Below, in pieces: positions 16,685 to 33,001 of a stretch of 41,300 nucleotides of DNA. Source of the DNA: Clostridia bacterium (lineage in GTDB: Bacteria; Bacillota; Peptococcia; DRI-13; SV3-B141); contig JAHDSB010000002.1 of NCBI GenBank assembly GCA_018433015.1, forward strand, positions 1-41,300. The letters are read 5' to 3'. Positions within the stretch are counted from its first letter, which is position 1; every line of letters begins with the position of its first letter. The notes beneath the pieces were generated by a model, which had not been told where the DNA came from, ran no database searches, and saw only the letters and a program-made list of their open reading frames with translations. The translations under genes were made by a program, and so were the position numbers.

Positions 16685-16700
16685 TGGCACGAATTATGCA
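16685..16700 (+). promoter_or_regulatory. Sigma-54 (-24/-12) promoter for ddh
   Basis: TGGCACGAATTATGCA matches the sigma-54 consensus (TGGCACG-N4-TTGCA) with intact -24 GG and -12 GC at the exact 12-base GG-to-GC register. The single departure is A for T in the -12 element. Initiation would be expected about 12 bases downstream of the GC, near 16711, some 40 bases before the ddh ATG at 16754. It needs an AAA+ enhancer-binding protein, and one is encoded at 23562. Confidence 0.85.
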
Positions 16701-16753
16701 AGCTAATGAATATGTTAGCTGCAGAAATTCTAAAATGAAGGAGGATTAGCCTT

Positions 16754-17650
16754 ATGAAAAAAAAATCTGTAGTAATAGTAGGTTTCGGAAATATAGGGCA
16801 TTACGCTTATGAAAGTGTAACAGCAGAAAAGGATATGGAATTAAAAGGTATTGTAGAAACGGCTCCTAACATGCCTGACAATGTAGATGGTATACCCATA
16901 GTTTCAGATGTTAGTTCCTTAGAAAAACCCGATGTAGCTATTTTGTGTGTACCAAGTCGCTTAGTAAAAAAGATTGTACCCTTATATCTGGAAAAAGGCA
17001 TTTGTACAGTTGATCCCTATGATATTCATGGTGAAACCATGTTGGAGCTGCGGAAAGAATTTGATGATATTGGGAAGAAAAATAATGCCGCATCTATTAT
17101 AGCGGCAGGTTGGGATCCCGGTTCTGATTCCATGATTAGAGGGATTATGAAATTGATGGTGCCTAGGGGAGTAACTCATACCAATTTTGGCCCGGGAATG
17201 AGTATGGGCCATTCCGTAGTAGCTAAAGCTGTAGAGGGAGTAGAGGATGCTGTTAGCTTGACTATACCTGTTGGTACAGGATTGCATCGCCGTTTGGTGT
17301 ATGTAAAGCTTAAACCGGGTGCTGATTTAGAAAAAGTAGAAGCTCAAATAAAACAAGATAATTACTTCAGAAATGACGAGACCTATGTTTATGCTATTGA
17401 TGATATAGAAGATGTTAAAGATATGGGGCATGGTGTACATATAGAACATAAAGGGAAAGCCGGTATAACCCACAATCAGATAATTGATTACGTGCATCAT
17501 ATCAACAATCCTGCTGTTACGGCTCAGGTCTTAACTTCGGCTGCTCGAGCTGTTACGAAACAAAAACCCGGTTGTTACACGCTCTTAGAAGTTCCTATTG
17601 CTGATTATTTAAATATGGATTTAGAAACTTTAGTAAGGAAAATGGTTTAA
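16754..17650 (+). CDS. ddh: meso-Diaminopimelate D-dehydrogenase (type II-like)
   Basis: NADP-dependent oxidoreductase of 298 aa, reversibly converting meso-DAP to L-2-amino-6-oxopimelate plus ammonia. The Rossmann motif VGFGNIGHY is at residues 9-17. The substrate domain has AAGWDPGSDSMIRG, NFGPGMSMGHSVVAKAVEGV and, near the C-terminus, KPGCYTLLEVPIADYL. The length and the motif set (GTGLHRR, ATHNQ-like ITHNQ) fit the Symbiobacterium-type subgroup, some members of which accept other D-amino acids. An AAGGAGG SD precedes ATG 16754. It can serve lysine/cell-wall synthesis, but the sigma-54 promoter and the transporter and amidohydrolase neighbours suggest catabolic use here (inference). Confidence 0.88.
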   Translation: MKKKSVVIVGFGNIGHYAYESVTAEKDMELKGIVETAPNMPDNVDGIPIVSDVSSLEKPDVAILCVPSRLVKKIVPLYLEKGICTVDPYDIHGETMLELRKEFDDIGKKNNAASIIAAGWDPGSDSMIRGIMKLMVPRGVTHTNFGPGMSMGHSVVAKAVEGVEDAVSLTIPVGTGLHRRLVYVKLKPGADLEKVEAQIKQDNYFRNDETYVYAIDDIEDVKDMGHGVHIEHKGKAGITHNQIIDYVHHINNPAVTAQVLTSAARAVTKQKPGCYTLLEVPIADYLNMDLETLVRKMV

Positions 17651-17768
17651 ACTAAGTCGGCAATATAGGAATAAATAGCTAGTAGGAAAAGAGGTGATGA
17701 GCTAAGAACAATAAAACTTAGGTTAAACTAACAAAACTAAATACATCAGCGTAGAAGGGAGTAATAAT

Positions 17769-19190
17769 ATGGAAAATTTCGGATTATTATCAATACTACC
17801 ACCTGTAATTTCAATTGTCCTAGCCTTAGTTACAAAGGATGTAATTACGTCATTATTTTTAGGTTGTTTTTCAGCTTTTACTATTCTAGCAGGGGGTAAT
17901 ATCTTAGTTGGTATAAGTGATACACTGATGTCCTTTATTAAGGTATTTGAAAGCAATGGCAATACCATTTGTATAGGAATCACAGTTTTGCTCGGCGGAT
18001 TACTGTATGTCACAGAAAAATCAGGAGGAGTACAAGGTTTTGCAAAATTCTTTACTTCTAAAAGATCATTTATTAAAACAAGAAGAGGTGCAGAAATATT
18101 CTCTTGGTTTATCGGTATAATAGTATTTACTTCAGGTACGGTTAGCGCTTTAATTACAGGAACTGTGGCTAGACCTTTAACAGATGCTTTTAAAGTACCT
18201 CACGAAAAATTAGCGTACATTGTCCACTCCACTACTTCTCCGGTTTGTGCTCTCTTACCCTTGAGTGCTTGGGGTGCTTATATGATCGGCTTAATTCAGG
18301 CTCAAGGTATTGATAATCCTGCTGCTGTAATGGTTAAGTCAATCCCCTTGAATTTCTACAGTATAATCGCCCTATTTTTAGTGTTATTCTTTGCCATTTC
18401 CGGTAAAGATTACGGTCCTATGGTGAAAGCTGAACAAAGAGTTAAAGAGACAGGGCTCCTTGATGCACCTAAAGGCACTATGGACCAAGAAGAACAGGCT
18501 CAAGAAGCGGCAGCAGCCAGTGAGATTCAACCTACTACTATGTGGAATCTTGTTTTACCTATTATTGCAATGACAGTAATGATTATTGCCGGTTTATTGA
18601 TTACAGGTAAAGGTAATATTCTGGAGGGAGCCGGCATGACAGCTATTTTATGGGGTAATACCTTTGCTATATTTGTCGCTTTAATTATGTACACTTCCCA
18701 AAAAATCATGACTTATAAAGAATTTATTAATATCATGTTTGAAGGGGCAGGTAAATTACTACCAATTGCTTTTATTCTTATTTTTGCTTGGTCATTAGGC
18801 GGTGCAGTTAAACAACTAGGCACTGGTGTTTTTTTGGCTGAAACTCTTTCCGGTATCATTACACCCGCTTTTTTACCTCCATTAATTTTTATTATCAGTT
18901 GTATTATTTCTTTTGCTACGGGCAGTTCTTGGGGGACTATGGCTGTTATGTGTCCTATTGCTTTACCTATGGCTATTGCTAGTGGTGCTAATATTGCTCT
19001 TTGTTTCGGTGCTATTGTAGGGGGAGCTCTTTTCGGTGATCATTCCTCACCTATATCAGATAGTACTATAATGTCCTGCTTTACTACCCGGTGTGACATT
19101 ATGGATCATGTTAGGACTCAATTACCTTACACTCTGACGGCAGCAGCAGGCGCCATGGGGATATACTTAATTTTAGGTTTTGTATTTTAA
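17769..19190 (+). CDS. NhaC-family Na+/H+ antiporter-like transporter
   Basis: Integral membrane protein of 473 aa with about 11-12 hydrophobic segments, belonging to the NhaC (Na_H_antiporter) family. Family marks seen are FTSGTVSALITGTVARPL, TSPVCALLPLSAWGAYM and, near the end, GALFGDHSSPISDSTIMS. Some relatives exchange organic substrates with Na+ or H+ (malate/lactate, tyrosine, lysine), so an amino-acid or DAP-like substrate is possible given the ddh and M20 genes on either side. An AGAAGGGAG SD precedes ATG 17769. It lies 118 bases after ddh with no promoter or terminator that I can see between them. Confidence 0.85.
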   Translation: MENFGLLSILPPVISIVLALVTKDVITSLFLGCFSAFTILAGGNILVGISDTLMSFIKVFESNGNTICIGITVLLGGLLYVTEKSGGVQGFAKFFTSKRSFIKTRRGAEIFSWFIGIIVFTSGTVSALITGTVARPLTDAFKVPHEKLAYIVHSTTSPVCALLPLSAWGAYMIGLIQAQGIDNPAAVMVKSIPLNFYSIIALFLVLFFAISGKDYGPMVKAEQRVKETGLLDAPKGTMDQEEQAQEAAAASEIQPTTMWNLVLPIIAMTVMIIAGLLITGKGNILEGAGMTAILWGNTFAIFVALIMYTSQKIMTYKEFINIMFEGAGKLLPIAFILIFAWSLGGAVKQLGTGVFLAETLSGIITPAFLPPLIFIISCIISFATGSSWGTMAVMCPIALPMAIASGANIALCFGAIVGGALFGDHSSPISDSTIMSCFTTRCDIMDHVRTQLPYTLTAAAGAMGIYLILGFVF

Positions 19191-19251
19191 TTTGCTTTTT
19201 AAAATTTGTGATATATTTGTTTTATATTTAAATATATATAGCAAAACAAAA

Positions 19252-19300
19252 ATATGGGTAACTTCAAATAAGTAGTGATTACTTCAGAAGTTACCCATAT
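19252..19300 (+). repeat. 14-bp perfect inverted repeat with nested stem
   Basis: ATATGGGTAACTTC (19252-19265) is exactly complementary to GAAGTTACCCATAT (19287-19300). The intervening bases contain a second stem, AAGTA (19270-19274) with TACTT (19280-19284). No T-run follows, so it is not a typical rho-independent terminator. It ends about 30 bases before the M20 amidohydrolase ATG. It could be an mRNA-stability or attenuation element, or a small mobile-repeat remnant. Confidence 0.8.
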
Positions 19301-19329
19301 CTCATAAGTGGTGACGGGAGGGAAAACCT

Positions 19330-20514
19330 ATGGAATGTAAAGATTTCTTATCAGAAGCACAGAAGATGAGACAAAAACTTGTAGATATTAGAAGAGATAT
19401 ACATATGCATCCTGAACTTGATTTTGCTGTACATAGGACCGTGGGAAAGGTAGAAGAAATATTAGCATCTCTAGGGATTGAGACCAAAAGGGTTGCCGGC
19501 ACAGGTTTGGTTGGTTTATTAAAGGGAAGCGGTCAGGGCAAGACTGTAGGATTAAGGGCGGATATGGATGCTCTACCTATAAATGATGAAAAGCAAGTGG
19601 AGTATGCTTCGCAAGTGCCTAATAAAATGCATGCTTGTGGACATGATGTACATACTACGGTACTTTTAGGCGCAGCCCTACTTTTGAGTGCAGCCAGGGA
19701 TACATTTTCGGGTAACGTAAAGTTTCTTTTCCAACCTGCCGAAGAAACTGATGGAGGAGCTTTACCCATGATAGAGGAAGGGGTCATGGAAAATCCCCGT
19801 GTTGATGGAGTCTTTGGACTTCATACTTGCCCTGATTTAGAAGTAGGTAAAATTGGAATAAGTTATGGCAAAGCATATGCCGCATCGGATATGTTTGATG
19901 TTAGGATTTTTGGACAAGGAAGCCATGGAGCTGCTCCCCACCAGGGTGTTGATGCTATAATGGCAGGTGTTCAGGTTGTTAATGCTTTACAAACCTTTGT
20001 GAGTCGTAATGTAGACCCAGTGGATTCTGCCGTAGTAACAATCGGAAAATTTCAGGGAGGATATCAGAGAAACGTTATCGCTGATAAGGTAGAACTTTCC
20101 GGGATTATTCGCACACTGGATCCGGGTACCCGTGAATTGGCACGGGAAAGGGTAACAAAAATTATTAATAATGTAACGGAGGCTATGGGAGCACGTGCTG
20201 AAATAGATTTTATGCCCAGTTATCCCTCGCTCATCAATGATAGTGGCATGGTGGACTTAGCTAAAGAAAATGCGGAAGCCTTGCTGGGTAAAGAAAATGT
20301 AGTATTAGTAGAAAAACCCACCATGGGAGTAGAAGATTGTGCTTACTTTTTACAAAAAGCTCCCGGTGCCTTTCTGCAGTTAGGAGTACGAAATAAAGAA
20401 AAGGGTATTGTCTATCCTTTACATAATAGCCTTTACGATGTAGATGAGGATTGTCTGCCTATTGCAGCTGCATTAACGGCATGCAATGCAGTACGTTTTT
20501 TACAGATGAAATAA
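19330..20514 (+). CDS. M20 family amidohydrolase (N-acyl-amino-acid / N-acetyl-DAP deacetylase-like)
   Basis: Dinuclear-metal amidohydrolase of 394 aa, M20D type. RRDIHMHPELDF is at residues 21-32, GLRADMDALP at 74-83 and metal ligands HACGHDVH at 101-108. The PAEETDGGALPMIEEG glutamates and a lid-domain FGQGSHGAAPHQGVDA segment follow. Relatives hydrolyse N-acyl amino acids, hippurate, indole-amino-acid conjugates or N-acetyl-L,L-DAP; the exact substrate cannot be told. Its place after ddh and an NhaC-type transporter points to release of an amino acid from an imported or wall-derived N-acyl compound. A GACGGGAGG SD precedes ATG 19330. Confidence 0.88.
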   Translation: MECKDFLSEAQKMRQKLVDIRRDIHMHPELDFAVHRTVGKVEEILASLGIETKRVAGTGLVGLLKGSGQGKTVGLRADMDALPINDEKQVEYASQVPNKMHACGHDVHTTVLLGAALLLSAARDTFSGNVKFLFQPAEETDGGALPMIEEGVMENPRVDGVFGLHTCPDLEVGKIGISYGKAYAASDMFDVRIFGQGSHGAAPHQGVDAIMAGVQVVNALQTFVSRNVDPVDSAVVTIGKFQGGYQRNVIADKVELSGIIRTLDPGTRELARERVTKIINNVTEAMGARAEIDFMPSYPSLINDSGMVDLAKENAEALLGKENVVLVEKPTMGVEDCAYFLQKAPGAFLQLGVRNKEKGIVYPLHNSLYDVDEDCLPIAAALTACNAVRFLQMK

Positions 20515-20523
20515 CTAATAGGG

Positions 20524-20544
20524 GCTGCCTGAGGGGCAGCTTTT
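20524..20544 (+). terminator. Intrinsic terminator after the M20 gene
   Basis: GCTGCC (20524-20529), loop TGAGG, GGCAGC (20535-20540), then TTTT. It ends the ddh-nhaC-M20 transcript. Confidence 0.75.
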
Positions 20545-20657
20545 CTCTAATAGGGATGTTTAATTATTGTATTTAAATTAATAATATATAAAAAAGGAAA
20601 TATGAGTTATTTCGTCGAACTAAAACATATAATTTGATGAAAAAAGGAGCTCGCTTC

Positions 20658-21538: not shown

Positions 21539-23533
21539 ATGAAAAGTATAGGTTCTAAATTTGCTCTATACTTTACTGTCACTTTGTTAATTGTTTGTGC
21601 TGGTTTAAGTATTTTATCCTATCATAATGCTTCCCAGGCCCTTATTAAAAAGGTAGAAGAGGAACTACCGGAGAAAGCCGCTGATGCAGGCAAATATATA
21701 GAAGTCTGTATCGATAAGCGTTTTAAAGAATTACAAACCATAGGTGATTGGTACTTAACAAGCAACTTAACATGGGACGAACAAAAAAGGATGTTAGATT
21801 ATCAAGCAAAAAGATTAGGCTATTTGACTTTGGCAGTTGTAGATAACCAAGGGATTGCCCATTACACAGATGATACTACAACAGATTTATCGGAGCGAGA
21901 TTACATAAAAAATGCCTTAATGGGAGTACAAAATCTCTCAGATCCTTTGCTCAGCAAAGTGACCGATGAAACAGTTTTTATGGCTGCTGTTCCCTTAGTA
22001 AATACGGAAGGAGATATCAAAGGTGCACTAATTGGCCGTTTAGATGGAAGTATCTTGAGTACTATCGTAGAAAATATCTCTTATGGTGCTAGTGGTTATG
22101 CCTTTATGGTTGATGAAAAAGGTACCATAATCGCTCATCATGATAAAAATGTAGCTAAACAACAACTTAATGTTATAAAAGAGGCTAATAAAGATTCCCA
22201 ATACGCTTCTTTGGCTAGTGTAATAACAAAAATGATTAATAGAACAAAGGCTGCCGATAGATATTCGTATGCTGAGGAACAAAAGTATGCCGGTTATGCT
22301 CCCTTTGCTATCAACAATTGGTCTTTGGCGGTGAGTGCTCCCGTAGATGAAGTGTTGGCGGGACTTGTACCTCTGAAGAATTCGGCGGTAATAGCGAGTT
22401 TAATATTTATTGTAATCGGGATAATTATTGCTTTATTGGTAGGAAAACAAATGGCTGGTACTTTGAAAACGGTTACGACCCAAGCTGAAATTGTAGCTGA
22501 AGGAGATTTGAGCAAGGAAATTAACCAAAGGTTATTACAGCGTAAAGATGAAGTAGGTCGTCTAGCTCAGACGTTTGCTATTATGACAAGTTTTTTGCGC
22601 AAGACTACAGGGGAAATTAGTGCAGCAAGCCAAGAATTAGCTGCTTTTAGTGATAATTTAGCCCAAACTACCGAAAACGCTTCTGCCCAGATGCAAGAAA
22701 TAACTGCTACTACGGAAGAGCTATCTTCGGGTTTTGAAGAGGTTACTTCCTCAACTCAAAGTATTTCCGATTCCAGCCAGCACATGGCAGAAACAGCATC
22801 TGAACTGGAAAATAAAGCACGCAATGCCTTTGTACAAAGTGAAGAAATTGAAAAACGCGCTGTTAAGTTAAAACAGGAAACCGTTACATCACAAAGATCT
22901 GCCCAAGATATTGGTGCTAAATTCCAACAGCGTATGGTAGAAGCTATTGAAAAGGCTCAAATAGTAAAAGAAATTACTCAAATGACTGATCTAATATCAG
23001 ATATAGCTGAAGAAACTAATTTACTAGCTCTAAATGCTGCTATTGAAGCAGCAAGAGCCGGAGAGCAGGGTCGTGGTTTTGCCGTTGTAGCAGAAGAGGT
23101 TAGAAAACTGGCTGAAGAATCGGCTCACACGGTAGCAAAAATTCAGCAATTAACTAAAGACGTTCAAGTATCAATCAATGACTTAATCAAAGATACGAAG
23201 GGATTATTAGAATATCTTAACTCAAATGTAAAAAATGATTATGATAAATTTGTACAAGTTAGCGAGCAATATCAGGGTGACGCTAAGCTGTTTTCTACTA
23301 TGATGAGGGAAACATTAACTATGGCCAGTGAAGTACTAAGTAGTATTAATATGATAAAAACAGCTATTTCAGAAGCAGCTGTAGCTGTGGAGCAAAGTGC
23401 TTTAGGTTCGGCAGAAATCGTTAAAAGTACGGATATAACTAATAAGTCACTGATAGAGACAAATAAAACTTCTGCTAAATTGGCTGAAATGGCTGATAAT
23501 ATGGAAGAGTTAATAAATAGATTTAAATTATAG
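21539..23533 (+). CDS. Methyl-accepting chemotaxis protein with dCache sensor
   Basis: Chemoreceptor of 664 aa. The first membrane helix is near residues 7-29, followed by an extracellular double-Cache type sensor (about 35-275; [12 protein letters not shown] and [15 protein letters not shown] are seen). The second helix is near 280-303, with HAMP directly after. The cytoplasmic signalling hairpin contains [20 protein letters not shown] and [19 protein letters not shown]. dCache domains commonly bind amino acids or small carboxylates. It ends 28 bases before the sigma-54 activator gene, so it may be co-transcribed and share the same nutrient theme. A GGAGGGAGG SD precedes ATG 21539. No strong promoter was identified upstream. 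Confidence 0.93.
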
Positions 23534-23561
23534 CTAAGCTATTTATAGAAAGAGGTGTAGC

Positions 23562-24944
23562 ATGTCCTCCCCGATAAAGCGTTTATTGGGTAGCAATGTA
23601 CGCAGGATTTTAGATTTCTTAAATGATGGAATAATCATAACAGATGAGAAAGCTATAGTACATTATATTAACTCTGCTTATACCTTGTATTCTGGTTTGG
23701 AGTTTGAAGATATTGTGAATAAATATCTTCCCGAAGTTAGACCCGGTGCTATGTTACCCAAAGTATTGGAAGATCATAAACCTATCAGGAATTTCCCGAG
23801 AAAAGTAGGTAAGGTTGAATCGTATTGCGATTTTATACCTATTATTATTGAAGGAAAGTTGGTAGGAGGAATTGCTATAGTCAAAGATGTGGTAAGAATT
23901 AAAGATTTACTGCAACGGTTAGAGGAAAGTAAAGAAAAGATTGTTCAGCTAGATAATAGAGTAAAAGATTCTTTTAAAGCAAAATTTACTTTTAGCTCCA
24001 TAGTCGGAAGAGAAGGTGGATTAAAAAACACCATCACCATGTGTTATAAGGCTGCTCAAACAGATAGCCCTGTTTTATTGCTAGGGGAAAGTGGGACAGG
24101 CAAGGAAGTTTTAGCTCAATCTATTCATAATGCCAGTAAAAGAAAGGAATATCCTTTTGTCGATATTAATTGTGGGGCTCTTCCGGAGAATCTGTTGGAA
24201 AGCGAATTATTCGGTTATGAGGCAGGCGCTTTTACAGGGGCTAGGAAAAATGGAAAACTAGGTTTATTTGAAATCGCTAACGGAGGCACTATTTTCCTTG
24301 ATGAAATCACAGAAATGCCAATTAATTTACAAACCAAGCTATTAAGAGTTTTGCAGGAACAAAGGATTTTAAAAATAGGGAGCGAAAAAGCACTAGAGAT
24401 TAATGTCCGTGTAATTGCTGCAACTAATAAAAATGTCTTAGAACTAGTTAAGGAAAAAAGCTTTAGAGAAGACTTATATTTTAGATTAGCGGTCTTTGTT
24501 ATAAGCATTCCTGCTTTACGAGAAAGAAAAGAAGATATTACTCTGTTAGTACAAAAGTTTATTGAAGAACAGCAACGGAAGCAGAAACATGTCATTTTTG
24601 TAAATAGTGATGCTATGCATATCCTTAAATATTATGATTGGCCGGGTAATATCAGGGAGATAAAAAATATTATCGAATATGCATGTAATGTTACAGAAGA
24701 TTATACTATCAAACCAGAAGATATCCCTCAGAATATCTTAAAATTCAGTAGCGTAAAAAGATTAGTTGAACAAAAAAGGAATAACATGACTCTAGCACAG
24801 ATTGTGGGAGATGTAGAGAAAAAAATAATAAGGGACTATTTAACTTTATATGGAAATGATGTGCCAGCAAAGAAAAGAATTGCCCAAGAATTAAATATTT
24901 CTATTGCTACGTTATATAACAAGATAAAAAGATATAGTTTGTAA
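23562..24944 (+). CDS. Sigma-54-dependent activator with PAS sensor (AtoC/RocR-like)
   Basis: Enhancer-binding protein of 460 aa. A PAS domain covers residues about 13-115. The AAA+ core has Walker A GESGTGKE (175-182), the sigma-54-contacting GAFTGA loop (222-227) and Walker B GTIFLDEI (242-249). A Fis-type helix-turn-helix ends the protein (about 425-458, [12 protein letters not shown]). There is no receiver domain, so it should sense a ligand directly through PAS. It lies immediately upstream of a sigma-54 promoter and the thiolase/CoA-transferase/AtoE genes, its most likely target. The ddh promoter at 16685 is a candidate second target. An AGAGGTG SD precedes ATG 23562. Confidence 0.93.
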
Positions 24945-24970
24945 GAAGAGCTTGGTTAATTTATAAAGTA

Positions 24971-24984
24971 TTATAAATTTATAA
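24971..24984. promoter_or_regulatory. Palindrome upstream of atoB promoter
   Basis: TTATAAATTTATAA is a perfect 14-base palindrome about 165 bases upstream of the sigma-54 promoter. It could be an activator site, but AT-rich palindromes arise easily by chance. Confidence 0.3.
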
Positions 24985-25005
24985 GAAATTAGAAATGACA
25001 ATTCA

Positions 25006-25021
25006 TCACTTGCAACAGTGA
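25006..25021. promoter_or_regulatory. Candidate enhancer site (UAS) for the sigma-54 activator
   Basis: The dyad TCACT-N6-AGTGA (25006-25021) has the form of a Fis-type HTH dimer site. It lies about 120-130 bases upstream of the -24 element, a normal enhancer distance. Only one copy is seen, so the assignment is tentative. Confidence 0.45.
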
Positions 25022-25087
25022 CTTTTGTGTTATAAAAAAATAAAAAATTCTAAAAAATTAGAAGGCATGAAAGTTAATGCTTTTCTG

Positions 25088-25116
25088 AAACACCATAATT
25101 TATGGTGTTTTTTTTT
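25088..25116 (+). terminator. Intrinsic terminator after the sigma-54 activator gene
   Basis: AAACACCATA (25088-25097), loop ATT, TATGGTGTTT (25101-25110), with the T-run continuing to 25116. It separates the activator transcript from the sigma-54-driven operon that begins about 20 bases later. Confidence 0.9.
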
Positions 25117-25136
25117 GTACTTTTTTAATATTTCTT

Positions 25137-25152
25137 AGGCATTGGTTTTGCA
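25137..25152 (+). promoter_or_regulatory. Sigma-54 (-24/-12) promoter for the ato-like operon
   Basis: AGGCATTGGTTTTGCA has the -24 GGCA and -12 TTGCA elements. The distance from GG (25138) to GC (25150) is the required 12 bases. Predicted initiation is near 25162, about 37 bases before the thiolase ATG. It sits directly downstream of the gene for a sigma-54 activator. Confidence 0.83.
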
Positions 25153-25198
25153 ATGATTAATTTATAGTAGGAAAAAACTTGCAAAGGAGGTTTAGTAA

Positions 25199-26401
25199 AT
25201 GCGAAAAGTAGTTATTACTGCAGGGGTTAGAACAGCTTTAGGAAAAATGGGAGGAACCCTTAAAGATTTGCAACCTGAAGAATTATGTAGGATTGTCATT
25301 GAAGGTGTTTTAGAGAAAAGTAATTTGGGAAAAAGGTTAGTTGATGAAGTTATCTTTGGTCAAACCAAACAGTCTACAGATGCGCCTAATATTGCAAGGG
25401 TTGCAGCATTAAAGGCCGGTTTACCGGAAGAAGTTCCGGGCTATACCATTCATCGCCAATGCTCCTCAGGTATGCAGGCCATCATAAGTGCTGTGTGGCA
25501 GATTCAAACCGGCTATGCAGATATAGTTATAGCAGGTGGGGTAGAAAGCATGAGTACGGCACCATTCTATCTGCGTAGAGCAAGGTATGGTTATAGTGCA
25601 GGTAATGGAGTACTTTTAGATCCTAATACAGAAAGCCAACCAAGATCACAACCGGAAGAGATTTATGGGCGATTCAGCATGGGTTTAACGGCTGAGAATT
25701 TAGCAGAGAAATATCAAATATCAAGGACAGAACAAGACACATTTTCTTATTTAAGTCAAAGAAAAGCTATTCAAGCCATTGATGCGGGTAAATTTAAAGA
25801 AGAAATTATCGCTGTACCGGTATATGACAAGAAAGAAAAGAAGATAACATACTTCCAAGAAGATGAAGGTCCCCGCAGAAACACCTCATTGGAAAAGTTG
25901 GAAAAACTTAAACCGGTTTTTAAAGAGGGAGGAACTGTTACTGCAGGAAACAGTTCCAGCCGTAATGATGGAGCTGCTGCTGTTGTTGTTATGGCAGAGG
26001 AAATAGCAGCAAAAAATAAGCTTAAGCCTTTAGTTCGTTTTATCTCAACAGGCATAGCGGGGGTAAATCCCAGAGTGATGGGAATAGGGCCTGTCCCGGC
26101 AACACGAAAAGCTCTGGAAAGAGCAAATCTAAAACTTGAAGATATAAGTTTATTTGAATTAAATGAGGCTTTTGCAGCACAAAGTTTAGCAGTTATTAAA
26201 GAATTAAATATAAATGAGGAACTTGTTAATGTTAACGGTGGAGCTATCGCTTTAGGACACCCCTTGGGTTGTAGTGGTACAAGAATAGTTGTAACCCTAA
26301 TTCATGAAATGATAAAAAGAGAACTAAAATTTGGGTTAGCTTCTCTCTGCGTGGCTGGAGGTCTGGGAATGACCAGTATATATGAAAATTTAAGATATTA
26401 A
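25199..26401 (+). CDS. atoB: Acetyl-CoA C-acetyltransferase (thiolase)
   Basis: Thiolase II of 400 aa that interconverts acetoacetyl-CoA plus CoA with two acetyl-CoA. The acylated nucleophile Cys88 lies in HRQCSSGMQA. The catalytic GHPLGCSGTR has His354, and the second Cys384 is in CVAGGLGM, a slight variant of the usual C-x-G-G-G. It heads a sigma-54-driven operon with both CoA-transferase subunits and an AtoE-type transporter, matching the acetoacetate degradation layout of ato operons. The reverse (synthetic) direction cannot be excluded. An AAAGGAGG SD precedes ATG 25199. Confidence 0.93.
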   Translation: MRKVVITAGVRTALGKMGGTLKDLQPEELCRIVIEGVLEKSNLGKRLVDEVIFGQTKQSTDAPNIARVAALKAGLPEEVPGYTIHRQCSSGMQAIISAVWQIQTGYADIVIAGGVESMSTAPFYLRRARYGYSAGNGVLLDPNTESQPRSQPEEIYGRFSMGLTAENLAEKYQISRTEQDTFSYLSQRKAIQAIDAGKFKEEIIAVPVYDKKEKKITYFQEDEGPRRNTSLEKLEKLKPVFKEGGTVTAGNSSSRNDGAAAVVVMAEEIAAKNKLKPLVRFISTGIAGVNPRVMGIGPVPATRKALERANLKLEDISLFELNEAFAAQSLAVIKELNINEELVNVNGGAIALGHPLGCSGTRIVVTLIHEMIKRELKFGLASLCVAGGLGMTSIYENLRY

Positions 26402-26420
26402 CTAAAACGAGGTGATTTCC

Positions 26421-27080
26421 TTGAAACACAAGCATAAGTTTTATGCGATAAATGAAGCAATATCTCAGATTAAACAAGGTTCTAGGGTTATGGTAGGAGG
26501 CTTTGGTTTACGGGGATATCCCGATGTTCTTGTGGAAGCTTTGGCGGAAAGCGGTATTAATGATTTAACCATTATCAGTAATGATTTAGGCTCGCCAGGG
26601 ATAGGTTTAGGAAAATTATTATCCAATGGGCAAATTAAAAAATTAATCGGTAATTATTATAATTGGAATCCTGATGTAGCCCAAGCCTATAATGAAGGGA
26701 TAATTGATGTAACTCTTGTGCCTCAAGGAACTTTTGCCGAGGCCATAAGGGCGGCAGGAGTGGGAATACCAGCCTTTTATACTGCTACATCTGTAGGTAC
26801 GGAACTAGCTAGTAACAAAGAAATTAGGGAATTTTCAGAAAAAAGCTATGTATTAGAAAGAGCTATTTCGGCCGATGTAGCCCTCTTAAAAGCATATAAA
26901 GCTGATAAATTAGGAAATCTAATTTATTACAAAACAGCAAGAAATTTTAATCCTGTTATGGCTATGGCAGCAAAGCTAGTTATTGTTCAGGTAGACGAAA
27001 TAGTAGAAAGTGGCGAATTGAATTCTGAAAGTATCGTTACACCCCATATTTTTGTCGATATTTTGGTCAAAAAGGAGTGA
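26421..27080 (+). CDS. atoD: Acetoacetate/3-oxoacid CoA-transferase subunit A
   Basis: Alpha subunit of a family I CoA-transferase, 219 aa from this start. The GGFGLRGYPDVLVEAL segment (about residues 22-37) is the CoA-binding G-G-F-G region, and later GVGIPAFYT and EFSEKSYVLERAI are typical. It moves CoA from an acyl-CoA donor onto acetoacetate or a short-chain fatty acid. TTG 26421 is preferred over GTG 26412 because GAGGTGA (26409-26415) is 5 bases before the TTG and would overlap the GTG. Partner subunit B follows after 5 bases. Butyrate/acetoacetate specificity is not resolved. Confidence 0.9.
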   Translation: MKHKHKFYAINEAISQIKQGSRVMVGGFGLRGYPDVLVEALAESGINDLTIISNDLGSPGIGLGKLLSNGQIKKLIGNYYNWNPDVAQAYNEGIIDVTLVPQGTFAEAIRAAGVGIPAFYTATSVGTELASNKEIREFSEKSYVLERAISADVALLKAYKADKLGNLIYYKTARNFNPVMAMAAKLVIVQVDEIVESGELNSESIVTPHIFVDILVKKE

Positions 27081-27085
27081 TAACA

Positions 27086-27763
27086 TTGATAAATATATCT
27101 AAAGAAGAAGCAAAAAACAGGATAGCGAAGAGAATTGCTCAAGAGTTTAATGTAACTAAAGATATAGTGTTTATAAATTTAGGGGTGGGTATCCCTACTA
27201 TGGTAGCTAATTATATTAACAACGAAAATGTATTCATTCAGGCAGAAAACGGTATTTTAGGTGTGGGTCCCTTAGCAGAGGGTGATGATATCGACTTTCA
27301 GCTAATTAATGCTGGACGACAGCCTGTAACCGAAAGAAAAGGGTGCAGTTATTTTGATAGCTCGGTTTCCTTCGGAATGATTAGGGGGGGCCATATAGAT
27401 GTTACAGTAATTGGTGCTTTTGAAGTAGATGGGGAGGGTAATATTGCTAATTGGATTATACCTAATGGTAAACAATTGGGAGTAGGTGGAGCTATGGATC
27501 TTGTCAGTGGTGCTGGCAAAGTAATTATAGCTATGCAACATAATGGAAAAGATGGTAAGAGGAAGATCAAAAAAAGTTGTACATTACCCATAACCGGATT
27601 TCAAGAAGCTGATATGGTAGTGACGGAATGGGCCGTATTTTCTTTATATCAGGGCCGCTTAGTTTTACAAGAAATTGCCTCTGATATTACTTTAGACGAG
27701 CTGAAGAGTAGAACAGAAGCTGAATTTAAAATAAGTGATAATTTAATAGAGTTTAAAACCTGA
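27086..27763 (+). CDS. atoA: Acetoacetate/3-oxoacid CoA-transferase subunit B
   Basis: Beta subunit of the same enzyme, 225 aa. It holds the glutamate that forms the glutamyl-CoA intermediate: Glu54 in the motif QAENGILGVGP. NLGVGIPTMVANYI precedes it and GGHIDVTVIGAFEVD follows, both characteristic. TTG 27086 is preferred because AAAGGAG (27071-27077) is 8 bases upstream and would overlap the alternative GTG 27077. With AtoD, thiolase and the AtoE-like transporter it completes uptake, CoA activation and thiolysis of acetoacetate. Confidence 0.92.
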   Translation: MINISKEEAKNRIAKRIAQEFNVTKDIVFINLGVGIPTMVANYINNENVFIQAENGILGVGPLAEGDDIDFQLINAGRQPVTERKGCSYFDSSVSFGMIRGGHIDVTVIGAFEVDGEGNIANWIIPNGKQLGVGGAMDLVSGAGKVIIAMQHNGKDGKRKIKKSCTLPITGFQEADMVVTEWAVFSLYQGRLVLQEIASDITLDELKSRTEAEFKISDNLIEFKT

Positions 27764-27801
27764 ATAGTATAAAAATTTGGTAAATAAAAGGAGGGTATAG
27801 C

Positions 27802-29115
27802 GTGAAAAGGGCCAGCAGATTTTTTGTTAAATTAGTTCAGGAATATCTACCAAACGCTTATGTATTAGCTATTGTGTTAACATTTATAATTTTCTTGTTG
27901 GGTATATTTGTAGCTAATAGAGGGCCTCTAGAAATGATTATATTTTGGGGAACAGGATATCCTGAATTGTTTCAGTTTGCTATGCAAATGGTTATGGTGT
28001 TGATCACAGGGTATGTTCTAGCAAAAACTAGGTTAGTACAAAGCTTTCTAAACATGATAACCGATAAAGCCACAACTCCTGGGCGGGCCATAATGATTAC
28101 CTGTTTAGTCTCCTTTGTATCATGCTATTTAAATTGGGGTTTTGGTTTAGTTTTTGGTGCCTTGCTAGCGAAAGAGATGGGAACAAAAGTCAAAGGCTTG
28201 CATTTTCCCCTTATTATTGCTGCTGCTTATGGAGGGGATATAGTTAGAGGACCTTCATCATCTATACCTTTGGTAGTAGCGACTGAGGGACATTTTATGC
28301 AAGATATTATCGGTGTTATACCAGTATCTGAAACGCTTTATAGCAATTGGAATCTTCTAGTCACGCTATTTTTATTTATTTTACTTCCTATGGTATTTTG
28401 GAAAATGATGCCCTCGGAAGATGAAACTCTTGAGTTTATGAAGGAAAATAGCGCTGCTACGGCACCTCTTAAGGAAGAAATCAAAGAATATAAAACTTTT
28501 GCAGAAAAAATGGAGAATAGTAGAATTATTAATTTCTTGTTCGGTCTAATGCCTACTATTTATTTAATCACGTATCTGGTGGATAATGGATTATCTCTCA
28601 ACTTAAATGTTATAATTTTGCTATTCTTTGCAATAGGGATAATGCTGCACGGTAATCCTATGAGTTATGTTAATGCAGTTAAAGAAGCAGTAGTAGCGGC
28701 ACGGGGAATAATTCTTCAATTTCCTTTGTATGCTGGGATGATGGGTATGATGAAAGCTTCAGGTTTAGTAGTTATTATTGCAAATTGGTTTGTTAGCGTT
28801 GCTACACCAACAACTTTTCCTCTTTTTACGTTTTTATCTGCAGGACTTGTAAATTTGTTTGTGCCATCGGGAGGAGGGCAATGGGCTGTGCAAGGGCCTA
28901 TAATGGTAGATGCAGCTGCAAAATTGGGAGCAGATTTACCAAAAACTATCATGGCTTTTGCTTGGGGTGATGCTTGGACCAACCAAATCCAACCTTTTTG
29001 GGCCTTGCCTGCTTTAGGTATAGCCGGGTTAGGAGCACGAGATATTATGGGGTATTGTGTTATTTGGACTTTTATATCGGCACTTGTTATCACAGGTATA
29101 TTTCTACTAATTTAA
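27802..29115 (+). CDS. atoE: Short-chain fatty acid transporter, AtoE family
   Basis: Integral membrane protein of 437 aa with about 11-12 hydrophobic stretches, of the AtoE/TIGR00366 family. Family features include PNAYVLAIVLTF, SCYLNWGFGLVFGALLAKE, the VPSGGGQWAVQGPIMVDAA segment and AWGDAWTNQIQPFWALP. It should import acetoacetate, butyrate or related acids. GTG 27802 follows GGAGGG. It is the last gene of the sigma-54-driven operon, followed by a terminator. Acid export is a formal alternative if the pathway runs in the synthetic direction. Confidence 0.92.
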   Translation: MKRASRFFVKLVQEYLPNAYVLAIVLTFIIFLLGIFVANRGPLEMIIFWGTGYPELFQFAMQMVMVLITGYVLAKTRLVQSFLNMITDKATTPGRAIMITCLVSFVSCYLNWGFGLVFGALLAKEMGTKVKGLHFPLIIAAAYGGDIVRGPSSSIPLVVATEGHFMQDIIGVIPVSETLYSNWNLLVTLFLFILLPMVFWKMMPSEDETLEFMKENSAATAPLKEEIKEYKTFAEKMENSRIINFLFGLMPTIYLITYLVDNGLSLNLNVIILLFFAIGIMLHGNPMSYVNAVKEAVVAARGIILQFPLYAGMMGMMKASGLVVIIANWFVSVATPTTFPLFTFLSAGLVNLFVPSGGGQWAVQGPIMVDAAAKLGADLPKTIMAFAWGDAWTNQIQPFWALPALGIAGLGARDIMGYCVIWTFISALVITGIFLLI

Positions 29116-29140
29116 AGGGCTCTTTTTAGAGCTCTTTTTT
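29114..29140 (+). terminator. Intrinsic terminator after atoE
   Basis: AAAGGGCTC (29114-29122), loop TTTTTA, GAGCTCTTT (29129-29137) with one G-T pair, then further T to 29140. Confidence 0.85.
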
Positions 29141-29153
29141 CTTTATTTTAATG

Positions 29154-29183
29154 TTGATATAGACCTTTAAAATGTGGTAAACT
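29154..29183 (+). promoter_or_regulatory. Candidate sigma-A promoter for trpB2
   Basis: TTGATA (29154-29159), an 18-base spacer, and TAAACT (29178-29183), about 40 bases before the trpB2 start and directly after the atoE terminator. Confidence 0.5.
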
Positions 29184-29223
29184 AAGAAAAATTTATTTTA
29201 ATTGTGAGGAGAGATGAGTAGAG

Positions 29224-30585
29224 ATGAGAAAAGTAGAGACCACGAAGATAATTTTGCCGGAAAACAGGATACCCGAATATTGGTATAATGTACAAGCAGA
29301 TATGCCTAATCTGGTAGATCCTCCTTTGAATCCTCAGACCCAAGAGAATGTCGGGCCCGAGGATTTATTACAAATATTTCCCCAGGCGTTAATTGAGCAG
29401 GAAGTTAGTCAGGAAAGATATATAGAAATACCTGATGAAATAAGACGTATTTATCAACAATGGAGACCATCCCCTTTATTTCGCGCTCATAATTTAGAAA
29501 AAAAGTTGGGCACCCCTTGTAGAATCTATTATAAATATGAAGGTGTTAGCCCGGTTGGCAGTCATAAATTAAATTCTGCTGTGGCCCAAGCCTATTATAA
29601 TAAACGGGAGGGCATAAAACGCTTAGCAACGGAAACGGGAGCCGGACAATGGGGAACAGCTTTAGCTTTAGCTTGCCAAATGTTTGATCTTCAGTGCAGT
29701 GTGTATATGGTAAGGATCAGTTTTGAGCAAAAGAAGTTTCGACGCTCATTTATGGAAGTTTATGGTGCTGAATGTATAGCTAGCCCCAGTTCCCAAACTC
29801 GTATAGGCCAAAAGGTTTTACTTGAAATGCCTGATACTCCTGGAACATTGGGGATTGCTATCAGTGAGGCTGTAGAAGATGCTATGGGAAGAGATGACAC
29901 GAATTATGCCCTAGGCAGCGTACTTAATCATGTATGCTTACATCAGACGGTTATCGGACAAGAAGTGAAATTACAGCTGGAAATGGTGGATGATTACCCT
30001 GACGTTGTCATTGGTTGTTGTGGTGGCGGGAGTAATTTAGCGGGAATTACTTTTCCTTTTATCCCCGATAAATTGAAAGGTAAAAATGTGCGTCTGGTAG
30101 CTGTAGAACCCGCTGCTTGTCCCACTTTAACCAAAGGGACTTTTGCTTATGACTACGGTGATGTGGCTGGATTAACCCCTATAGTGAAGATGTATACTTT
30201 GGGGCATAGTTTTACTCCCCCGGGTATTCATGCAGGAGGTTTAAGGTATCACGGAGCTTCCCCCTTGGTCAGCCAGTTATATCACGATGGCTTATTAGAG
30301 GCGAAAGCCCTTGGTCAAAAGGGCGTCTTTGAAGCTGCTTTATTATTTGCCAGAACAGAAGGTATAGTTCCTGCCCCTGAATCATCCCACGCGGTAAAAG
30401 CTGCTGTAGACGAAGCTTTAGTAGCGAAAGAAGAGGGGAAAGCACGCAGCATTGTTTTTAATTTAAGTGGACATGGACATTTAGATTTAGCTGCTTACGA
30501 AAACTATTTTTCTGGAAACGTACAGGATGTGAATTATACTACCACAGATATTGCAGAAAACTTAAAAAATCTACCCGTAAAATAA
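29224..30585 (+). CDS. trpB2: TrpB2-type tryptophan synthase beta subunit
   Basis: PLP-dependent enzyme of 453 aa belonging to the longer TrpB2 subgroup (TIGR01415) rather than canonical TrpB1. The cofactor lysine is Lys115 in GSHKLNSA, and the phosphate-cradle [10 protein letters not shown] is in place. [15 protein letters not shown] and [14 protein letters not shown] are also present. TrpB2 proteins condense indole with L-serine and often lack a tight TrpA partner. No trpA or other trp gene is in this window, and the gene appears monocistronic with its own promoter and terminator. That fits indole salvage, though the physiological role is not proven. Confidence 0.93.
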
Positions 30586-30918: not shown

Positions 30919-31638
30919 ATGATACATAGACAACAAAGGAATCTAAGAAAGAAAAAGTATAGAATAAGATGGCGGAGAATAATCTTATTCTTTTGTTGTG
31001 TTATTGGTTTCTTTTGTGGAATTTACATAACTTTTAATACGTCATTTTCTCTACACAGAGGTACCTTGGCAAAATATCATATTGTAATAGATGCAGGACA
31101 TGGTGGTTCCGATTGTGGAACTATTGGTGTTGAAACCGGCGTATATGAAAAAGATATTAATCTTGCCATAGCAACCAAACTACAAGCCGAATTAGAGAAA
31201 CTTGGTGCAAAAATAACTATGACAAGAACAGAGAAAACCACTAAGGCTTTAGGTAATACGAAAAAGTTAAGTATAGAAGAAAGAGGAAGAATTATTGAAG
31301 CTATACAACCCGATATGACCCTTAGCATACACCAGAATTTTAATGAGGATAGTAACAAAATAAGGGGAACCCAAATTTTGTGCAATGGATCAACATCGGT
31401 AATGTTGGCAAGTACTTTGCAAGCTACCTTTAATAGCGAACTGAATACAGATTTAAATTATCTACAAAACGACTATAAGATTTTGAAATTTGGTAATCAT
31501 CCCAGTGTTATTGTGGAATGTGGATTTTTATCTAATAAAAATGATGAAAAATTATTACAAACAAGTAAATACCAGAAGCGAATTGTAGAAGTGCTAGTAA
31601 AAGAGGTAGAAAATTATTTATTAAATCAGGAAATATAG
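30919..31638 (+). CDS. cwlD: N-acetylmuramoyl-L-alanine amidase, CwlD-like
   Basis: Amidase_3 zinc hydrolase of 239 aa that cuts the bond between muramic acid and the stem peptide. A basic N-terminus (RKKKYRIRWRR) leads into one membrane/signal helix (about residues 21-39). Zinc and catalytic residues are His61 (DAGHGG), Glu76, His138 (SIHQN) and Glu200 (VECGFLSN). Length and layout match CwlD, which helps make muramic-delta-lactam in the spore cortex. A vegetative amidase with the same fold is possible, so the gene symbol is a best guess. ATG 30919 follows AGAGGA. Confidence 0.88.
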   Translation: MIHRQQRNLRKKKYRIRWRRIILFFCCVIGFFCGIYITFNTSFSLHRGTLAKYHIVIDAGHGGSDCGTIGVETGVYEKDINLAIATKLQAELEKLGAKITMTRTEKTTKALGNTKKLSIEERGRIIEAIQPDMTLSIHQNFNEDSNKIRGTQILCNGSTSVMLASTLQATFNSELNTDLNYLQNDYKILKFGNHPSVIVECGFLSNKNDEKLLQTSKYQKRIVEVLVKEVENYLLNQEI

Positions 31639-32507: not shown

Positions 32508-32617
32508 TAATAATTGTATTTTTTCTTTGTAAGCAAGCGGATGTGATGAAGTACAACTTGTAAAATGGGCACTTGAGTTGTATGGAACAATTAGTGCGAC
32601 CGGCCGCCCTTATAGTT

Positions 32618-32870: not shown

Positions 32871-33001
32871 AAAGATTTAATAATAAAATTACATAAAGAT
32901 GCTCACTTGAAATAATTGTTGTGATCTGTCTCATTTACTGGATAGAGAGACATGTATCATGTATAATTATTTATAGTGAGGGGGTGGGGCTCATAAAGAA
33001 A

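Follow-up and report, generated by a model that had tools for sequence, protein, structure and literature searches.

A candidate sigma-54-switched unit for meso-diaminopimelate breakdown around a type II Ddh variant in a Clostridia bacterium

On balance, we lean towards reading three neighbouring genes of a Clostridia bacterium as a sigma-54-switched catabolic unit for meso-diaminopimelate (meso-DAP). They lie on the plus strand of a 41,300-nucleotide stretch (assembly GCA_018433015.1, contig JAHDSB010000002.1, positions 1 to 41,300), hereafter the window, which belongs to contig C13 of a genome of 3.75 Mb in 197 contigs. The genes are ddh (16754 to 17650), coding for a type II meso-DAP dehydrogenase of 298 residues with predicted preference for NAD+; a transporter gene of the NhaC superfamily (17769 to 19190), whose product presumably takes up DAP or a DAP compound; and a gene for an M20 amidohydrolase/peptidase with HACGHD and PAEE motifs (19330 to 20514). 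A sequence-only reading of the window had already named a type II-like DAP dehydrogenase, a transporter and an M20 enzyme here, and profile scores together with type II relatives in the PDB bear these names out. In the proposed unit, the NhaC-type carrier would import DAP as such, as N-acyl-DAP or within a small wall peptide, the M20 enzyme would free DAP, and Ddh would work oxidatively, converting meso-DAP, NAD+ and water into L-2-amino-6-oxopimelate, ammonium and NADH, the oxopimelate standing in equilibrium with tetrahydrodipicolinate; an activator of the ddh-linked family, encoded on contig C45, would turn the unit on. For the window unit we infer the substrate, direction, cofactor, transport and role of the activator from the evidence laid out below.

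The family of the dehydrogenase is clear. It passes the TIGR01921 profile with 267 bits against a cut-off of 180.6, scores 342-354 bits against type II chains of the PDB and 84-102 bits against type I chains in phmmer, and has as its nearest solved structures 8i78 and StDAPDH (3wb9), both of type II, with which its placement in the tree agrees. For StDAPDH (PDB 3wb9/3wbf; EC 1.4.1.16), an excerpt of PMC7424261 describes the residues contacting meso-DAP and the pair Arg35/Arg36 that grips the NADP phosphate. The window enzyme shares with StDAPDH its length, its sequence family and, by alignment, all ten of the ten meso-DAP contacts, but both phmmer and multiple alignments show Glu-Thr (codons at 16856 to 16861, plus strand) instead of the two arginines for the NADP 2'-phosphate; at position 35/36 a global pairwise alignment opens a gap, and Arg-Arg appears in none of the alignments. 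In Rossmann folds whose second strand ends in an acidic residue the cofactor is usually NAD+, and Glu35 accordingly suggests, as far as sequence can tell, an NAD+-linked enzyme. Because Arg35-Arg36 has given way to Glu-Thr, we class the protein as a variant of type II meso-DAP dehydrogenase for which another cofactor is predicted. Its gene also differs from that of StDAPDH in having a sigma-54 site, transporter neighbours and a host with another route to DAP.

The sigma-54 (-24/-12) promoter site TGGCACGAATTATGCA lies at 16685 to 16700 on the plus strand, 69 bp upstream of ddh, whose start is preceded at 9 nt by GGAGG (16740-16744). It is the sole exact match to TGGCAC-N6-TGCW in the window, and sites of equal quality number two in 220,950 strand-bases of the host genome with the window's own included, or 0.003 per 300 nt. 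Since such sites are rare in host sequence and recur upstream of related ddh genes, this one is more than chance. Elsewhere in the window, a second near-consensus sigma-54 site, TGGCAAGTACTTTGCA, is found at 31406-31421 within an Amidase_3 gene (30919-31638).

Regarding the wider family, the window Ddh has matches in 122 of 398 genomes of its phylum at E 1e-10. Sequence of about 8 kb on either side of 73 type II matches was retrieved, plus further loci, 1.20 Mb in all, and the survey counts 90 type II Ddh rows, namely the window and loci L065-L140 and L176-L186, with four row pairs more than 95% identical; outside these rows stand the type I loci L141-L144, L006, L003/L005 (contigs of L068/L069), a decayed gene of genome G001 (L153) and unretrieved fragment matches. 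A scan of contigs for relatives of the window gave four, among which ORF calling for L004 is unreliable. At residues 35-36, 48 of the 90 enzymes carry Arg-Arg and 42 something else, including 20 with Asp or Glu at 35. Scanning 300 bp upstream with a fixed consensus at 10 or more of 11 matches, a threshold set after scoring, found a sigma-54 site before 16 of the 90 genes (window included), distributed as 13 of 20 acidic-35 genes, 3 of 22 other non-Arg-Arg genes and none of 48 Arg-Arg genes. The same holds inside single genomes: five of them (G333, G240, G436, G435 and G432) carry two type II ddh each, with the site before the acidic copy in 5/5 and before the paralogue in 0/5, although these pairs belong to one family and probably go back to one duplication. 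G247 likewise has the site before its acidic copy only, and in G439, where both copies are acidic, one has it. What is more, a sigma-54 activator gene stands on the same strand at most 2.6 kb upstream of 12 ddh genes, and all 12 are non-Arg-Arg.

We call a ddh module-linked when a match to a seed family lies on its strand no further than 2.6 kb upstream or 1.8 kb downstream. As we picked the seeds after viewing the loci, the label is not blind; by this rule L071 stays outside, though a Bmp-type ABC system stands further downstream there. Of 26 module-linked rows, 23 are non-Arg-Arg (Fisher p 3e-7 with kinship ignored), and all 23 fall on a single side of the tree that comprises 37 rows (SH-aLRT 93, not starred). 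The module habit thus belongs to one branch of the type II family, and the link between cofactor site and gene context is mostly that of one clade. Within the tree, the window Ddh groups with L138 and L139, both from its own order, in a supported clade (100/99 in one tree, 98 in another), while its nearest relative overall is that of G001, 74% identical over residues 86-298.

These close relatives keep ddh with other importers. Liv ABC genes follow it in L138 and L139, with a sigma-54 activator upstream in L138 too, and in G001 (L153 12160-13725) the decayed ddh is left between remnants of a module-type sigma-54 activator and a Liv ABC operon. The transporter of the window's kind reappears beside ddh in G394 (L081/L158: two activators, ddh, dapF, NhaC) and in G247 (L110/L159: ddh, activator, ddh, dapF, NhaC); in G310 (L113 7046-8002) a single ORF starts with the first ~188 DapF residues and runs on into the terminal part of an NhaC protein (57% identity over 54 residues), which is a deletion scar of the ddh-dapF-NhaC order. 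M20 genes adjoin ddh in G439 (L185), where an activator, ddh and, after ~20 bp, an M20 gene with a product 61% identical to the window's are followed by a Gate protein, and in G381 (L118/L157), with the order alanine racemase, M20, M55 D-aminopeptidase, ddh and Opp ABC genes. Other loci bring an S66 LD-carboxypeptidase and two Gate proteins ahead of ddh (L181), an M55 gene beside it (L113), a Na+-symporter-type carrier with DapF (L182, L184, L072), Opp genes (L069, L176, L179) or an Asp/Glu racemase (L076). Within the retrieved sequence, 4 of 5 NhaC matches, 3 of 3 M20 matches and 9 of 11 DapF matches adjoin ddh; both cysteine motifs are present in each of seven DapF proteins checked from modules, a set that includes two near-copies, and the DapF of L158 passes the DapF equivalog cut-off. 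Taken as partners, several importer classes, epimerase and racemases, D-aminopeptidase, LD-carboxypeptidase and M20 enzymes fit the import and degradation of DAP derived from wall peptides. A highly divergent Ddh (branch 1.4) in L140 (G023:C14) has Glu-Thr-Ala at the cofactor site, like the window's, near genes for a PLP enzyme and a RidA-like protein named by eye.

The host need not depend on Ddh for making DAP. At C135:111310-113334 a DapF (316 bits) adjoins an LL-DAP aminotransferase (DapL; 614 bits, cut-off 593), and DAP synthesis is therefore possible without Ddh; no second Ddh was found in the host genome, where the next match has 23.5 bits only. We reject, on account of this pair, the idea that Ddh is the host's sole DAP route, which was a circumstance in which the sequence-only reading would have given up its proposal. 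Adjacent dapF and dapL genes occur also in G394, G310 and G001, each of which has a second dapF, and in G394 and G310 this second copy lies within the ddh module.

A candidate regulator is at hand as well. The ddh-linked activator family has one full-length member in the host, at C45:19973-21760 (44% identity, 484 bits), while the second best of the host's 36 matches to the sigma-54 activator reaches 343 bits over residues 243-620 only. A nearer candidate, the PrdR-like activator encoded at 23562-24944 in the window, scores 462 against a family cut-off of 795; it precedes thiolase, CoA-transferase and AtoE genes, and with a full-length activator of the ddh type on C45 we prefer, short of proof, to discard it as the regulator of ddh. 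The C45 region (L198 8019-15154) contains Asd, an aspartokinase with no ACT domain found at E 0.001, the module-type activator, an amidohydrolase and an NhaC protein 56% identical to the window's, and is a possible sister unit of the window set. In G001, an Asd-aspartokinase pair related to that of C45 (69% and 59%) lies upstream of the remnants of activator and ddh and of the Liv operon, with an EamA transporter gene between. On host contig C14 (L199 8966-15541) a sigma-54 activator is followed by a pair of class-A beta-lactamase-like hydrolases, by an amidohydrolase of the C45 kind and by an amino-acid permease; together they may form a further unit for wall peptides or D-amino acids. Neither the C45 nor the C14 stretch yielded a near-consensus sigma-54 site.

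Several observations weigh against a catabolic DAP unit. The exact ddh-NhaC-M20 trio was seen in the window alone (1/90), and the other two M20-linked loci, L185 and L118, are without a good sigma-54 site in 300 bp. Three module-linked rows are Arg-Arg, and 19 of the 64 rows outside the module are non-Arg-Arg; with the motif columns excluded from tree building, 5 changes suffice for the loss of Arg-Arg and 11 for module status, and the test on independent pairs is not significant. The promoter site falls within a 47-codon open frame, for which a Pfam search gave no match, and the hairpin at 19252-19300 may split the transcript between nhaC and M20. According to an excerpt of PMC7424261, a type II enzyme with the Arg pair works with both cofactors. 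Among 13 genomes tested for DapL and DapF, mostly module-bearing, DapL above the cut-off is missing from seven (G240, G333, G295, G247, G017, G023 and G381), DapF above the cut-off is missing from G333, and none was found in G381 (86% complete). G247 and G381 share one taxonomic class, represented by a separate set of 13 genomes. Because DapL, and partly DapF, falls below the cut-off in those seven genomes, their ddh may be biosynthetic. Non-Arg-Arg ddh also occurs in biosynthetic context, with the order aspartokinase-dapB-dapA-ddh in L120 and with dapB in L111, in both of which Ddh is probably biosynthetic. The conserved clustering for which the sequence-only reading had called was found for pairs, with ddh next to NhaC and ddh next to M20 each recurring in other families, frequently accompanied by sigma-54 sites and activators, but not for the whole set; its notion of catabolic salvage by an enzyme of lysine synthesis gains from the separate DAP route, the recurrent neighbours and Glu35 and loses from the want of the trio elsewhere.

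Three other explanations deserve attention. Ddh might be a general NAD-linked D-amino-acid dehydrogenase in a unit for D-amino acids other than DAP or their N-acyl forms, which we regard as unlikely though worth keeping in sight: the part of PMC7084900 available reports activity of type II enzymes on plain 2-keto acids, racemases adjoin ddh in L076 and L118, the ddh-linked transporters come from many classes, and an amidohydrolase beside ddh in L176 and L179 looks by eye like a D-amino-acid deacylase (NCBIfam says only 'amidohydrolase family'). However, the complete conservation of the meso-DAP contacts speaks against a change of substrate, as does the commonest enzyme neighbour being DapF, above its equivalog cut-off in L158. 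The opposite direction, with Ddh running reductively and fixing ammonium in DAP to supply wall or lysine synthesis under nitrogen-linked sigma-54 control, seems to us improbable. The reaction is reversible according to the same excerpt of PMC7424261, some non-Arg-Arg ddh genes adjoin dapA or dapB, and the seven genomes lacking DapL would suit it; yet the host has its DapF-DapL pair, the arginines for NADPH are lost, dapF is duplicated inside the ddh module in G394 and G310, and an importer, an M20 hydrolase, a D-aminopeptidase and an LD-carboxypeptidase would be superfluous for biosynthesis. It is very unlikely, in our estimate, that there is no functional unit and that the promoter serves ddh alone, with ddh-nhaC and M20 as chance neighbours: gaps of 118 bp between ddh and the transporter gene and 139 bp between the latter and M20, the hairpin in the second gap and a trio not conserved as a whole would agree with this, but distant families share the ddh-NhaC and ddh-M20 pairs, and within the retrieved loci both partner families have their matches almost only beside ddh.

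As for the transcript of the proposed catabolic unit, the sequence-only reading had bracketed the set by one sigma-54 promoter and one terminator. The former stands as the window's only exact consensus match, while the single terminator is less secure: the terminator-like hairpin 3' of M20 (GGCTGCC-TGAG-GGGCAGC type with a T-rich tail, TTTTCTCT, 20523 to 20548, plus strand) was not reported by the terminator scan of the window, and a perfect 14-bp inverted repeat at 19252 to 19300, between nhaC and M20, has a T-rich tail on the minus strand only and is possibly a minus-strand terminator or an attenuator. All three genes are on the plus strand, which carries little weight because nearly all ORFs of the window are too; one transcript for them is plausible.

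The transporter matches PF03553 with 172 bits and reaches 62.9 against a cut-off of 370 for the NhaC equivalog TIGR00931, on which ground a plain NhaC Na+/H+ antiporter was rejected; no relatives of it were found in the PDB. An excerpt of PMC5584792 presents the lysine transporter LysW, a member of the NhaC superfamily too, and the cargo expected in the window is close kin to lysine; the window unit differs in its sigma-54 control, in the position of the transporter gene next to ddh and in having no lysine riboswitch. Lysine-riboswitch control was rejected, as Rfam gave a single match for the window, a c-di-GMP-II riboswitch at 32530. The M20 enzyme passes TIGR01891 (373.5 bits, subfamily cut-off 153.75) and shares family and metal-site motifs with M20D amidohydrolases such as YxeP (1ysj), ILL2 (1xmb) and CpsA, but it stays below the CpsA equivalog cut-off (NF040868, 411 against 500) and is placed behind ddh and a transporter gene.

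Two known systems come close. Peptidoglycan recycling (AmpG, LdcA) sends tripeptide or DAP back to the wall; it resembles the present case in the import and trimming of wall peptides, with LD-carboxypeptidase and D-aminopeptidase genes by ddh in the window's relatives, but the DAP of the window unit would be deaminated. In anaerobes, sigma-54 operons for amino-acid fermentation (PrdR, proline reductase) are governed by an activator with PAS and AAA+ domains; activator family and amino-acid catabolism are alike, but the enzymes are not those of the window, and the window's own PrdR-like activator stays below the family cut-off. Neither a catabolic Ddh operon nor a dedicated DAP-consuming pathway appears in the titles and abstract openings of the open-licence papers that the literature searches brought up, a scope that leaves subscription papers outside. 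The window set is a new, testable arrangement of known enzyme families. DAP marks bacterial walls and, in dead biomass, represents a store of amino nitrogen. Should Ddh prove catabolic here, its automatic annotation as a lysine-biosynthesis enzyme would be in error for the recognisable branch with acidic residue 35 and a sigma-54 site, and enzymology would gain a natural branch of a D-amino-acid dehydrogenase that works with NAD. We hold it to be quite unlikely, though not absurd, that behind this lies an unrecognised pathway by which anaerobic Bacillota ferment the DAP of dead or shed walls with NAD-type Ddh, sigma-54 activators and interchangeable importers, the carbon skeleton passing through reversed DapB/DapA to pyruvate and aspartate semialdehyde and a reversed Asd-aspartokinase yielding ATP. 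Conjecturally, with aspartate semialdehyde as a product, the Asd-aspartokinase pairs that stand by the module-type activator in the host and in G001 would make sense.

Around the set, a polysaccharide cluster lies on the 5' side, and TspO, a chemoreceptor, a sigma-54 activator and genes of acetoacetate/butyrate type lie 3' of M20. The stretch 21539-30585, with a dCache chemoreceptor, the PrdR-like activator, thiolase, CoA-transferase A/B, an AtoE-type transporter and a PLP-enzyme gene, is possibly a second sigma-54 catabolic unit. Further downstream, the c-di-GMP-II riboswitch (32530-32614, 68.3 bits) stands ahead of an HD-domain gene at 32921.

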